This document shows positions 14,483 to 33,992 of a stretch of DNA of 49,511 nucleotides, piece by piece. The notes beneath the pieces were generated by a model. That model was given only the letters and a program-made list of their open reading frames with translations, had not been told where the DNA came from and made no database searches. Both the position numbers and the translations under genes were made by a program. Source of the DNA: Acidobacteriota bacterium (GTDB lineage: Bacteria; Acidobacteriota; Thermoanaerobaculia; Gp7-AA8). Positions within the stretch are counted from its first letter, which is position 1. Every line of letters starts with the position of its first letter. Location of the stretch: assembly GCA_021781455.1 (NCBI GenBank), contig JAJXWV010000008.1, positions 1 to 49,511 of the forward strand. Direction: 5' to 3'.

Positions 14483-14656
14483 GGAACCTCAAAAAAAGCC
14501 ACTGTCACGGCGAGTTGAGCACCTGCGAGACCCGGGGAACGACGATGACTGGGCGGAGATTCGTTTTTTCTCTAAACGCCCGGCAGGAAGCCAAAAGATC
14601 GTCGCACGCGGTGCGAACCTAGTATGCGAAACGTCTGCGCCAAATGCAAGTGATGG

Positions 14657-29772: not shown

Positions 29773-30582
29773 ATGGCCTTCCAGGGTTCACTCAAAGAAC
29801 TGCCACTTCCCGACATCATCCAGCTGGTCAGCGTGTCGGGGAAGACGGGCAAGTTCACTCTGACGCGGGACGCCGACCGCGGGTTCATCTTCCTCAAAGG
29901 GGGGCAGATGGTCCATGCCTCGGTCGGCGAGCTGATCGGCGAAGAGGCCATCTACTCGCTGGCCATCTGGAACTCGGGCGAATTCCAGTTCACGCCAGGG
30001 GAAGAGCCGGATCGGCAGACCATCGCCAAATCGAACACGAACCTTCTGATGGAAGCGGCGCGCCGGCTCGACGAATGGCGCGTGCTCTCGAAGAAGATCT
30101 CCTCCATCGACCTCGTCCCGGAGCTGATGACGCGCGAGAACCGGCACGAGCAGATCACGCTCAATCCTCAGGAGTGGATGCTGATCACGAAGATCGACGG
30201 GCATCGATCGATCGCCGACATCGGCAAGACGCTGAACATTTCCTCGTTCGACGTCGCCAAGATCTTGTACGGAATGGTCACCGGCGAGCTCGTTCAGCTA
30301 AAAAAAAAATCTGATCACGAAGCCGACGAGCAGAATGGCGAACTAGTGGAGTTGGCCGGCCGCATTCGAGCGGCCGCCGAGGAGTTCATCGGCGATTCGG
30401 CGCGCAAGACGCTGGAGAAGCATTTCCTGCACGCCCTGGACGGCATCATGAACGGCGACGGAACGCTGGCCGTCGATCAGATGGTCAAGGAGTTCGAGAA
30501 AACGGCCTCACTCCTGCGTGGAATGAGCGTGACCGAGAAGCTGCGGTCGCGCATCATCGAGATCCGCGCAATCGCCTCCTGA
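29773..30582 (+). CDS. DUF4388 domain protein
   Basis: A 269-residue cytoplasmic protein. Residues 1-100 are a DUF4388 domain (FQGSLKELPLPDIIQLVSVS, GKTGKFTLTRDADRGFIFLK, GGQMVHASVGELIGEEAIY), a module found with signalling and gliding proteins in deltaproteobacteria and Acidobacteriota. Residues about 130-178 resemble a small winged-helix unit (WMLITKIDGHRSIADIGKTL). A run of ten A residues at 30300-30309 encodes Lys177-179 at the boundary to a helical C-terminal domain (residues 180-269). ATG 29773 is preferred over a GTG at 29761. A partner has not been identified. Confidence 0.85.
   Translation: MAFQGSLKELPLPDIIQLVSVSGKTGKFTLTRDADRGFIFLKGGQMVHASVGELIGEEAIYSLAIWNSGEFQFTPGEEPDRQTIAKSNTNLLMEAARRLDEWRVLSKKISSIDLVPELMTRENRHEQITLNPQEWMLITKIDGHRSIADIGKTLNISSFDVAKILYGMVTGELVQLKKKSDHEADEQNGELVELAGRIRAAAEEFIGDSARKTLEKHFLHALDGIMNGDGTLAVDQMVKEFEKTASLLRGMSVTEKLRSRIIEIRAIAS
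30300..30309 (+). other. A10 homopolymer, candidate transcriptional slippage site
   Basis: Ten consecutive A residues in a GC-rich coding sequence, read CTA AAA AAA AAA TCT. One added A gives ATC TGA and immediate termination after residue 180. One lost A gives a stop 16 codons later. Either event would yield a DUF4388/winged-helix protein without the C-terminal helical domain. Confidence 0.45.
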
Positions 30583-30626
30583 GGGCGCGCCTCTGCTCCC
30601 TGTTCTCTTACAATGCGGGCGCTGCC

Positions 30627-31367
30627 ATGGCCGGCTTTCAAGTCGAACAGAGTGTGATCGGGCGGATCGTGGTCGCACCTTCCGTGCCGCGCCGATACGC
30701 GGTCTTCTACACCACGATCGATTTCACGGGACGCATCACCGATGAAGTCGCGCAGGCGCTCACCGCGCTGATCCGCGACCGGTTCGGGATCGAGGCATCG
30801 CTGACCACGTGCTACCAGGTTCACAGTGCGACGGTCCAGCGCGCGCAGCCCGGAAAGCTGTGGCGCGAGTGCGATGCCTGCGACGCGCTGTGGACCACGG
30901 ACGATCACGTCGCCCTCGGTATCAAGGTTGCAGATTGCCTTCCGGTCACGATGGTCGATCCTGCGAACTCGGTGATGGCGAACGTGCACTCCGGATGGCG
31001 TGGCACCGTGCAGCGCATCACCGCCGAGGCGCTCGATGCCATGCAGCGCTCGGCCGGGTTCGACCCGGCCGCCGGCCTGGCATGGCTGGGTCCTTCGATC
31101 CGCGCCTGCTGCTTCGAAGTGGGCGAGGAAGTCGTCGACCAGTTTTCGCAGGCATTCGCAGACGCGGAGCGCTACATCGACCGCTCGCACGGGAAGCCGC
31201 ACATCGACATCGCCGCGTTGACGGTGGACATGCTGCGTCAGCGCGGGTTCCCGGAGGGCCGGATCTTCGACTCGCAGATCTGCACGCGGTGCGAAGGCTC
31301 GATCTTTCATTCTCATCGCCGCGGACCGAAAGGCGGTGGCCGGAATCTCGCGTTTGCCGCACACTGA
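30627..31367 (+). CDS. pgeF: PgeF (YfiH/laccase-domain) family protein
   Basis: A 246-residue member of the YfiH/DUF152 family. Members edit peptidoglycan precursors (PgeF) or act as purine nucleoside phosphorylases. Family motifs are all present: TCYQVHSATV, CDALWTT, VADCLPVTM, ANVHSGWRGTV, GPSIRACCFEVG and QICTRCEGSIFHSHRRG. They include the Cys/His metal ligands. The class A penicillin-binding protein starts 6 bases after its stop codon, so a role in cell-wall quality control fits the context. The choice between PgeF and a nucleoside-phosphorylase role is inference. Confidence 0.9.
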   Translation: MAGFQVEQSVIGRIVVAPSVPRRYAVFYTTIDFTGRITDEVAQALTALIRDRFGIEASLTTCYQVHSATVQRAQPGKLWRECDACDALWTTDDHVALGIKVADCLPVTMVDPANSVMANVHSGWRGTVQRITAEALDAMQRSAGFDPAAGLAWLGPSIRACCFEVGEEVVDQFSQAFADAERYIDRSHGKPHIDIAALTVDMLRQRGFPEGRIFDSQICTRCEGSIFHSHRRGPKGGGRNLAFAAH

Positions 31368-31373
31368 GCTGGA

Positions 31374-33992
31374 ATGGCCATCAACAGACCGCCCCTGTCG
31401 CGACGTGGCCTGATCTTCCGCGTCATCTCCATCGCCGTCATCGCCGGCCTGGTCGCCTTTGCCGCGCTGGCCTTCTACGTGTACCGGCAGTCGGTGGGGA
31501 AGTTCGAGCTGCGCCGGCTGTCGCTGCCCACGCGCATCTTCACCGACCTCCAGCCGCTCAAGCCCGGCATGGCGCTCCAGCCCGACGATCTCGTCGACAA
31601 GTTGAACCGACTCGGATACCGCAGCACCAACGCCGTCGCTCAACCCGGCGACTACGCCACGAGCGGCCGCAACCAGATCGACGTCTACACCCGCCCGTTC
31701 TCGCATCCCACCGGCGCCTATCCGGCCCAACCGGTGCGCATCGTCTTCAGAGGTGGTGCCATCACCTCGGTGGTCTCGCTCGAGGCAGCGCACGACGTCA
31801 CGAACGCTGCGCTCGAGCCGGAGCTTCTGACGTCGATCCTCAGCGACCAGCTCGAGAACCGCCGTCCGGCCACGCTCGATCAGGTGCCGCAGCGCCTTCA
31901 GGACGCGGTCGTCGTGACCGAAGACGTCCGCTTCTGGCACCACCCCGGCGTCGATCCGATCGGCATTGCACGCGCGATGGTCCAGAACATCCGCGGAGGC
32001 GCCGTGGCCCAGGGAGGCTCGACGCTCACCCAGCAGCTGGTGAAGAACTACTACCTGACCAGCGAGCGGACCTTCCGGCGGAAGATCGTCGAGGCGTTCA
32101 TGGCCATCATCCTCGACGCCAGATACTCCAAGCGGGAGATCCTCGAGGCCTACCTCAACGACATCTACCTCGGCCGCAACCGCTCCATCTCCATCGTCGG
32201 TGTAGGCGAGGCCTCGCACTTCTATTTCGGCAAACCGGTCTCGGAGATCAACGTGCCGGAGGCGGCACTGCTGGCCGGCATGATCCGCAGTCCGAACAAT
32301 TACTCGCCGTTCACGCATCCCGACAAGGCGCTGGAGCGCCGGAACACCGTCCTGCAGCTGATGCTCAACAACCGCAAGATCGACCGGGCCACGTACGACC
32401 AGGCCATGGCCACGCCGCTCCCGCGCCAGCCCTTCCGGTCGCGCAGCGGATTGGGGTCGATCCCGTTCTACGTCGACCGCGTCCTCCAGGAGATGGCCAA
32501 CGACTACGGCATCAAGGACGTCAAGGGACGAGGCCTGGAGATTTACACGGCCATCGACCTCGCGGCCCAGGACAGCGCCACCCGCACGCTGGTGAACGGA
32601 CTGGAAGGTCTGGAGCGGGGGAGCCGCAGGCTGCGCCGGCGCAACCCGCAAGAGGCGCTGCAGGGCGTGATGATCGTCGTGGACGTGCCGAGCGGCGAGA
32701 TTCGCGCGCTGGTGGGCGGGCGCAACTACGACACCAACCAGTTCAACCGCGCTCTGAACGCCCGGCGGCAGGTGGGTTCGCTGATCAAGCCCTTCGTCTA
32801 CCTGACGGCGTTCGAGCCGAGCCTGTCGCAGCAGAACATCACGCCGGCCACGCTGGTCAGCGACACGCGTTTCGTCCTGAAGCGCAAGTTCGCGCCGGAC
32901 TGGTCGCCTCGCAATTACGGCGACGTCTATCGCGGCACGGTCACGGTGCAGGAGGCGCTCGAGCAGTCGCTCAACTCAGCGTCGGTGCGCATCGGGCTGG
33001 CCTGCGGGCTTCAGCCGATCTTCAAAACCATGCACACCCTCGGCGTGACCGAGGACCTGCAGGAGAACCCGGCCATTCTGTTGGGCGCCGTGGGCATTCC
33101 GCCGATCGAGATGGCCGACGCCTACTCGACCATCGCCCGCGTCGGCGCGCGCGTTCCCCTTCGCGCCATCCGCTTCGTCACCAACGACCGCGGCAAGCTC
33201 ATCTCCTCGGGCGATTCTCCCCAGCCTGTCCAGGTGTTCCCGGCGCGCGACGCCTTCATCCTCGACACCGTCATGAAGGGACCGGTCGACCGTGGAACAG
33301 CGCACGTCGTGCGCCGGATGGGATTCAAGAAGATCGCCGCCGGAAAGACCGGCACTACGAACGACCTGCGCGACGCCTGGTTCATCGGCTTCACGCCGCA
33401 GACGCTGGCGCTGACCTGGGTCGGCTTCGACGACAACACGCCCGTCGGCCTGGCCGGGGGCGATGCCGCCGCTCCGATCTGGGCGAAGTTCATGATCCCG
33501 TACACCGCCGGTCAGCCGGACCTGGACTTCGCGGCGCCGCCGGGAATCGTCTTCGCTCAGATCGACGAGACCAGCGGCGGCCTGGCCGTGCCGGAGTGTC
33601 CGCCCAACGTCGTCGTGAACGACGCGTTCAAGGCCGGGACCCAACCGACGAATCCCTGTCCGCTGCACAGTCCGCAGGCACCGCCGCCGCCGGCCGTCGA
33701 TCAGTTCGGAAATCCGATCGCCATCGACACAGCCGGGCCGCCGACGACCGAGGGAACCGGAACGGCGACACCGGAATCGACACTCACCGGAGGATTCCCG
33801 ACCGAGACCAATGCGCCTCCTCCTCCGCCGGTGCCGCCACCGACGACCACGACCGCCGCGCCTCCGACATCAACGGCGCCGCCGCCAGGATCTGGCGAGC
33901 GCCAGCGAGACCAGAACCGCGACAATCAGCCGCCGCCGTCGACCAACACGAGCCCGCCGCCGTCGACGAGCACCTCGCCGCCGCCGATCTGA
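31374..33992 (+). CDS. mrcB: Class A penicillin-binding protein, PBP1b type
   Basis: An 872-residue bifunctional peptidoglycan synthase. There is a short cytoplasmic tail and one membrane helix (residues about 15-35). Residues 50-150 fit the UB2H domain of PBP1b. The glycosyltransferase domain has VTEDVRFWHHPGVD (Glu183), GGSTLTQQLVKN and KREILEAYLNDIYLG. The transpeptidase has SLIK (Ser469), QSLNSAS and KTGTTND (Lys658). After about residue 760 the chain becomes a proline/threonine-rich tail (PPPSTNTSPPPSTSTSPPP), probably disordered in the periplasm. It is cotranscribed with pgeF. The 138 bases after it hold no gene or clear terminator. Confidence 0.95.
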   Translation: MAINRPPLSRRGLIFRVISIAVIAGLVAFAALAFYVYRQSVGKFELRRLSLPTRIFTDLQPLKPGMALQPDDLVDKLNRLGYRSTNAVAQPGDYATSGRNQIDVYTRPFSHPTGAYPAQPVRIVFRGGAITSVVSLEAAHDVTNAALEPELLTSILSDQLENRRPATLDQVPQRLQDAVVVTEDVRFWHHPGVDPIGIARAMVQNIRGGAVAQGGSTLTQQLVKNYYLTSERTFRRKIVEAFMAIILDARYSKREILEAYLNDIYLGRNRSISIVGVGEASHFYFGKPVSEINVPEAALLAGMIRSPNNYSPFTHPDKALERRNTVLQLMLNNRKIDRATYDQAMATPLPRQPFRSRSGLGSIPFYVDRVLQEMANDYGIKDVKGRGLEIYTAIDLAAQDSATRTLVNGLEGLERGSRRLRRRNPQEALQGVMIVVDVPSGEIRALVGGRNYDTNQFNRALNARRQVGSLIKPFVYLTAFEPSLSQQNITPATLVSDTRFVLKRKFAPDWSPRNYGDVYRGTVTVQEALEQSLNSASVRIGLACGLQPIFKTMHTLGVTEDLQENPAILLGAVGIPPIEMADAYSTIARVGARVPLRAIRFVTNDRGKLISSGDSPQPVQVFPARDAFILDTVMKGPVDRGTAHVVRRMGFKKIAAGKTGTTNDLRDAWFIGFTPQTLALTWVGFDDNTPVGLAGGDAAAPIWAKFMIPYTAGQPDLDFAAPPGIVFAQIDETSGGLAVPECPPNVVVNDAFKAGTQPTNPCPLHSPQAPPPPAVDQFGNPIAIDTAGPPTTEGTGTATPESTLTGGFPTETNAPPPPPVPPPTTTTAAPPTSTAPPPGSGERQRDQNRDNQPPPSTNTSPPPSTSTSPPPI

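Follow-up and report, generated by a model that had tools for sequence, protein, structure and literature searches.

The DUF4388-domain gene studied here comes from the 4.88-Mb genome (G000) of a soil lineage of Acidobacteriota. It very probably serves to produce two proteins, one long and one short, through slippage. It carries ten adenines within its reading frame, and both the length of this run and a stop codon in one shifted frame are conserved among its relatives beyond what the amino acids require. Our reading, to which we give a probability of about three in four, is that the run is a programmed site on which RNA polymerase would slip, yielding two protein forms in a fixed proportion. 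The same genome has two other genes that present a mirror-image layout, which the earlier note on this DNA, made from the letters alone, had missed.

A run of ten adenines at a domain boundary

The window, that is, the whole stretch of 49,511 nucleotides that was analysed, contains the gene on its forward strand (Table 1). The encoded protein scores 95.9 bits against the Pfam cut-off of 25 for DUF4388 (PF14332), a domain that we take to overlap the PATAN domain; literature matches for PATAN were limited to unrelated uses of the word. Downstream of this domain, the AlphaFold2 model presents a winged-helix-like part made of helices (132-170) and a strand (174-177), with a weak Foldseek match to the winged helix 2yu3 (probability 0.96 but E 0.87). 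For the protein, Foldseek returned no match in the PDB at E<=0.001. The model has a mean pLDDT of 83.8 and a pTM of 0.54, a value at which the relative placing of the N-terminal part and the four-helix region is unsure. The N-terminal part ends with strand 174-177, pLDDT falls below 50 only at residues 181-184, and four helices follow within 184-268. This succession of strand end, low-confidence joint and helices puts the run at a domain boundary.

The sequence at 30298-30315 reads CTA AAA AAA AAA TCT GAT in frame. One extra A changes the end of the product to LKKKI followed by a stop. The earlier note had reported the run, had placed it between the DUF4388/winged-helix part and a C-terminal helical domain, and had described immediate stops in the two other frames. 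The run is indeed present and the model agrees with its placement. The TGA that an extra A was said to produce at once is reached, after one intervening codon, and the TAG ascribed to a missing A "after 16 codons" is correct to within one, being the 16th codon counted from CTA.

Elsewhere in the window, the only A or T run of at least seven is a single A7 (14491-14497), and about 0.002 runs of at least ten As are expected on one strand under an order-1 composition model. We considered an antisense terminator using the T10 of the other strand and rejected it: the flank folds no better than its shuffles (z 0.49), no terminator-like site is listed at the run and the hairpin test was negative.

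Table 1. Features of the DUF4388 gene in the window and related sites in other loci (aa, amino acids)
Feature	Position	Strand	Basis
DUF4388 (PF14332) protein gene, 269-aa long form	29773..30582	+	ORF; Pfam DUF4388 E 2.3e-27, residues 4-103
DUF4388 domain, residues 4-103	29782..30081	+	Pfam
Winged-helix-like part, residues 130-179	30160..30309	+	PF13463 E 0.0019, below its cut-off
Candidate slippery site CTA AAA AAA AAA, A10 at 30300-30309	30298..30309	+	NTA AAA AAA AAR in 15/15 family orthologues
TGA after one codon in the +1 A (= ribosomal -1) frame, end of the predicted 180-aa short form	30312..30314	+	Translation; stop at the same place in 15/15
TAG in the -1 A frame, end of the predicted 190-aa form	30344..30346	+	Translation
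C-terminal four-helix region, residues 184-268, long form only	30322..30576	+	AlphaFold2 model
Sister-family DUF4388 gene with A10, long/short polarity swapped (L182)	G018:C2:27830-28369		
FHA-domain gene, A9 at its stop (L065; L070, run at 1249-1257)	G000:C70:48184-48192		PF00498
DUF374 acyltransferase gene interrupted by A10 (L060)	G000:C10:29036-29045		PF04028

Closely 3' of the DUF4388 gene we observed a Cu-oxidase_4 (laccase-domain) gene and then a bifunctional penicillin-binding protein gene (29773-33992 for the three). By eye, a frame resembling the laccase-domain gene also lies 3' of the DUF4388 gene of G018. Judging from these neighbours, it is possible that the DUF4388 gene is linked to cell-wall work.

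Run length and shifted stop are conserved beyond the encoded amino acids

We searched 18 genomes of the family, the named relatives being gp7/Thermoanaerobaculia MAGs, and assembled a set of DUF4388 orthologues from 15 distinct genomes (L001 and L037-L050). Another 13 loci (L007-L019) match 13 of this set in identity and in the codons at the site, and were not recounted. In three genomes (87%, 87% and 90% complete) the thresholds used yielded no orthologue and only paralogues of at most 34% identity. Most of the genomes compared are MAGs, in which a homopolymer count from a single genome may err; this is less serious for features found in 12-16 genomes, and assembly error as a general cause was rejected for a feature that recurs in 15.

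The run consists of A9G, A10 or A11 in all 15 orthologues, while pairwise identity at four-fold sites of these genes is just 26-70%. The codon before it is always NTA, which accounts for 3.9% of the other leucine and valine codons. Lysine is encoded by AAA in 41 of the 45 site codons, as against 59 of 183 (32%) in the rest of these genes, where the remaining 124 are AAG; all four AAG codons at the site are the last codon of an A9G run. The first two site lysines are AAA in every orthologue, and their codons are identical in all pairs compared with 0.47-0.87 at the 12 other lysine columns. The third (AAA or AAG) is no more conserved than the others, with a pair identity of 0.58, and some other columns of the gene also reach a codon identity of 1.00 (mean 0.593, n 235).

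The shifted stop is conserved as well. The codon after the lysines ends in T in 15/15 genes, against 9.1% T at third positions overall, although its residue varies seven ways (S, P, F, I, L, R or A); the second codon after the lysines is GAN in 14 genes and AAC in one. As a result, all 15 orthologues meet a stop after a single codon of the +1 A frame (TAA in G016, TGA in the others), whereas the next best of 266 columns presents stops in 5/15. Translation with one extra A gives exactly 180 aa from each orthologue. In the other shifted frame, two of 266 columns likewise have stops in 15/15, and one of the two is the NTA-A of the site; it is only in the +1 A frame that a conserved stop is out of the ordinary. 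The predicted -1 A products have 188-226 aa and the +2 A products 189-227 aa, compared with 246 (cut by a contig end) to 278 aa without slippage. In no orthologue does a slipped product, whether +1 A, -1 A or +2 A, reach the length of the unslipped protein.

We then extended the search to the class with the pattern NTAAAAAAAAARNNTGA, which was found in 14 of 148 genomes, all of them in the family and at the DUF4388 gene; the reversed control gave none. When calculated from the codon usage of each gene, the joint probability comes to about 1e-16 for the run and 1e-13 for the stop. It is 1e-12 and 1e-9 if each genus contributes a single genome, and 4e-4 and 1e-3 for just three rows (L050, L049 and L001). 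These values are only indicative, since they treat the genomes as independent, which they are not. The run appears to be under selection as DNA, beyond the encoding of lysine.

The earlier note had reasoned that lysines encoded by AAG in orthologues would speak against slippage, and that the A run itself, not only the lysines, should be conserved. The orthologues are consistent with its proposal on both counts, and the joint maintenance of run and +1 A stop in 15/15 supports its suggestion that RNA polymerase slippage could give two protein forms. The notion of a lysine-rich linker in an AT-rich patch, whose run has no function, would account for three lysines that are themselves conserved in the family. 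It is scarcely credible given the preference for AAG at lysines elsewhere, and is contradicted by the conserved shifted stop as well as by the NTA codon and the nine or more As kept in all orthologues. Chance A-richness was rejected.

Long and short frames are exchanged in one sister-family genome

The only genome analysed from another family of the order, G018, retains CTA followed by A10 in its DUF4388 gene. There the template frame stops 16 codons past the lysines and encodes 195 aa, and one additional A restores 274 aa with the C-terminal helical part. This swap of polarity is known from that one genome, in which a homopolymer error is possible. In 17 more distant loci (L020-L036, 42-61% identical) the longest A run is at most 5, and 16 of them present a single open frame of 271-299 aa, L020 being cut by a contig end. 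The lack of A runs longer than five suggests that one form suffices in these more distant relatives. The simplest reading of these sequences is that both products are wanted in the order, with the assignment of frame to product free to change.

FHA-domain and DUF374 genes with the mirror-image layout

Six A or T runs of at least nine are present in the whole of G000. Three are terminator tails after GC-rich hairpins and three are sense A runs in genes, namely in the DUF4388 gene, an FHA-domain gene and a DUF374 acyltransferase gene.

The frame of the FHA gene stops within a few codons past its run. A further stretch of about 280 residues, which includes hydrophobic segments, is encoded in a shifted frame in G000, and one extra A would join the FHA part to it. 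The run is found in 16 of the 18 family genomes; joining the two halves calls for +1 A in 13 of these and for -1 A (or +2 A) in the other three, and the codon before it is NTA in 14/16 and TCA in 2/16. The two FHA genes devoid of the run (G004 and G005) have the FHA and C-terminal parts in one open frame of 413-415 aa. Among the DUF374 orthologues, 12/17 have A10 or A11 and continue the domain in the +1 A frame, and 5/17 are intact and have no run; the length of the run is kept and its codon phase varies. One of the genes with no run (L101, from G016) is 57% identical to the query, against 81% for its genus-mate G017, and may not be the same gene. In most of these genomes both the FHA and the DUF374 gene have the appearance of broken genes, which, judging from these patterns, they probably are not; the DUF374 gene interrupted by A10 is likely mis-annotated as broken. 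The gene tree has little resolution, with 12 of its 21 inner branches open, and does not order the origins of the three runs.

These frame states also bear on phase variation at the DNA level, by which As would be gained or lost in replication and the gene switched. Homopolymers are slippery for DNA polymerase too (PMC3711429). A switch would show both states of each gene among relatives, whereas the states are fixed in a sample of one genome per species: the DUF4388 gene is in the long-form frame in 15/15, and the run leaves the gene out of frame in 16/16 FHA and 12/12 DUF374 genes that have it. We consider phase variation very improbable and have rejected it for the three genes.

A runs across the family and the class

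A census of the 18 family genomes yielded 95 runs of at least nine As, of which 43 lie at the three genes (15 in DUF4388, 16 in FHA and 12 in DUF374). Among the remaining 52, the three in G000 are all terminator tails, and 20 of the 49 others are terminator-like by a crude hairpin test that errs both ways: it flagged L146 as a terminator and missed L157. Only four pairs recur among these 52 runs. Three of them (L145/L152, L139/L181 and L157/L161) are terminator-like by sequence, and the fourth (L146/L177) is an in-frame A9 in a lysine-rich gene of G008 and G009, which belong to one genus. By eye, this gene has a lysine-rich N-terminal tail and a C-terminal part of Fic-like appearance. Several single runs of at least nine As were also seen inside long open frames.

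An order-1 model predicts 2.2 runs of at least nine As on both strands of a 4.88-Mb genome with this composition. The six runs of G000 are thus not fewer than expected by chance, and it is their position that matters. Among other genomes of the class the number of overlapping A9 matches differs greatly, being 223 in G019, 1 in G058 and 0 in G105. Neither the FHA nor the DUF374 gene was found among seven of the further places in G018 with at least nine As. Finally, dnaX of G000 has no run of A6 or longer in its 4065-base locus, the sole A or T run of that length being one T7.

RNA polymerase slippage as the probable mechanism and ribosomal frameshifting as its rival

In the mechanism that we propose, RNA polymerase would slip on the A10 and release mRNAs with extra or missing As. 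The unslipped mRNA would encode the 269-aa protein with its DUF4388, winged-helix-like and four-helix parts, the +1 A mRNA a 180-aa protein made of the first two parts and one residue, and the -1 A or +2 A mRNA proteins of 190-191 aa. The organism would maintain the two proteins at a fixed ratio, in the manner of tau and gamma from Thermus dnaX. Presumably the short protein, by way of the N-terminal part common to both, competes with the long one or co-assembles with it. By analogy, we infer a role like that of gamma and tau, with both forms in one assembly at a set ratio.

The same 180-aa product would result if ribosomes underwent a programmed -1 shift at A_AAA_AAA/G, as they do in E. coli dnaX, re-reading one A and meeting the TGA one codon on. 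All 15 orthologues contain the A_AAA_AAR heptamer, which is inevitable within such a run, and the conspicuously conserved stop falls in exactly the ribosomal -1 frame (15/15). Its distance resembles the E. coli dnaX layout, in which ribosomes "terminate one codon later" according to a review (PMC5009743). Downstream folding energies are somewhat low within the gene (mean rank 0.28), and the upstream pairing with the anti-Shine-Dalgarno (anti-SD) sequence is in the best 17% of the own gene in 5 of the 15 genes.

The heptamer, however, requires neither nine As nor an A-ending codon before it, and both are kept in 15/15. Shine-Dalgarno (SD)-like and stem-loop stimulators are present in E. coli dnaX and are defining for its type of -1 frameshifting. 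At the DUF4388 site, the 22 nt upstream contain no conserved SD-like sequence (anti-SD pairing at mean rank 0.37, the other ten genes ranging from 0.27 to 0.61), and we did not find a conserved stem-loop downstream: the consensus reaches -1.3 kcal/mol over 13 of the 15 sequences, and z values for single-sequence folding range from -1.95 to +1.11. This lack of conserved stimulators argues against ribosomal frameshifting and favours slippage of RNA polymerase. The same is suggested by what is conserved, which is the length of the run and not one heptamer in one phase, and by the three FHA genes of the lineage that need the opposite shift, since the FHA genes taken together require both directions. 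Moreover, one tRNA-Lys that reads both AAA and AAG belongs to the E. coli dnaX type, whereas this genome has both tRNA-Lys CTT and TTT, and separate tRNA-Lys genes for AAG and AAA favour the polymerase, an argument that the review PMC5009743 raises in its treatment of Thermus. Stops close by in both other frames point the same way. We therefore regard ribosomal frameshifting as unlikely, and RNA polymerase slippage as the better-supported and most likely mechanism on these sequences.

More broadly, we think it rather probable that poly(A) slippage serves this family as a regular means of gene expression, at least three unrelated chromosomal genes having each acquired an A9-A11 run that would set the ratio of two products. 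Selection would act on both products and not on the frame, with the polarity swapped in DUF4388 and the FHA shift being +1 or -1 by genus.

Comparison with known systems

To our knowledge, conserved cellular slippage genes outside IS elements are few, and here three candidates occur in one environmental lineage. They come with natural internal controls, namely the swap of polarity, both directions of shift and in-frame relatives devoid of the run (2/18 for FHA and 5/17 for DUF374), which make selection for the ratio of isoforms directly testable. They also constitute a warning to annotators, to whom the FHA and DUF374 genes of most of these genomes would seem broken.

Transcriptional slippage at poly(A) is established for Thermus dnaX, Shigella genes and IS elements in the accounts given by PMC1088944, PMC5009743 and PMC3711429. 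The first of these describes selection against slippage-prone runs as evident at length nine in many bacteria, and in the third, reporter cassettes from a different gene family showed frameshifting of 63% with 11 As, 40% with 9 and 10% with 7. Among the papers searched, the sole match for transcriptional slippage and Acidobacteria was a 2013 GeneTack survey, which names the phylum in a table with three genomes. Its main text does not contain "FHA", "forkhead" or "PATAN", and its sole "acyltransferase" is a kinase/acyltransferase pair under translational coupling; a related cluster is possible in the supplementary cluster lists. We found no literature linking transcriptional slippage with the FHA domain, and a wider search returned the survey and papers that, judged by their listing, seem unrelated.

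The closest parallel is dnaX of Thermus thermophilus, in which slippage at nine As yields tau and gamma (PMC1088944, PMC5009743). As described there, that gene has an in-frame A run of at least nine with close stops in both shifted frames, its template frame encodes the long form and slipped mRNA the short one, and there are two tRNA-Lys. A sense run of at least nine As inside the coding sequence is likewise found in 15/15 family orthologues and in G018, and nearby stops in both shifted frames give shorter products. Unlike Thermus dnaX, the present gene is an unrelated DUF4388 regulator and its +1 A stop is pinned at one codon. E. coli dnaX shares with it the slippery As, the -1-frame stop one codon on and the shortened second product (PMC5009743), but the DUF4388 site keeps at least nine As and presents no conserved SD-like or stem-loop stimulator that we could find. 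The DUF4388 gene of G018, with a short template form and a long shifted one, recalls the dnaX genes of reversed polarity that the same review describes (e.g., Chlorobium, with the short form in the zero frame), although the gene is different and the reversal, seen in one genome, sets apart two sister families that share a conserved run.

Finally, the layout of the FHA and DUF374 genes, in which the template frame stops past the run and the second half is in a shifted frame, is like that of Shigella mxiE and spa13 and of IS elements, for which a shift is needed for the long product (PMC1088944, PMC5009743). Unlike mxiE, which slips at a run of Us, the FHA-membrane and DUF374 acyltransferase genes have runs of As; they are chromosomal, and their conservation extends over genera of an Acidobacteriota family from the environment. 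The kind of mechanism is thus already known, and what would be new is these genes and their unusual concentration in one lineage.
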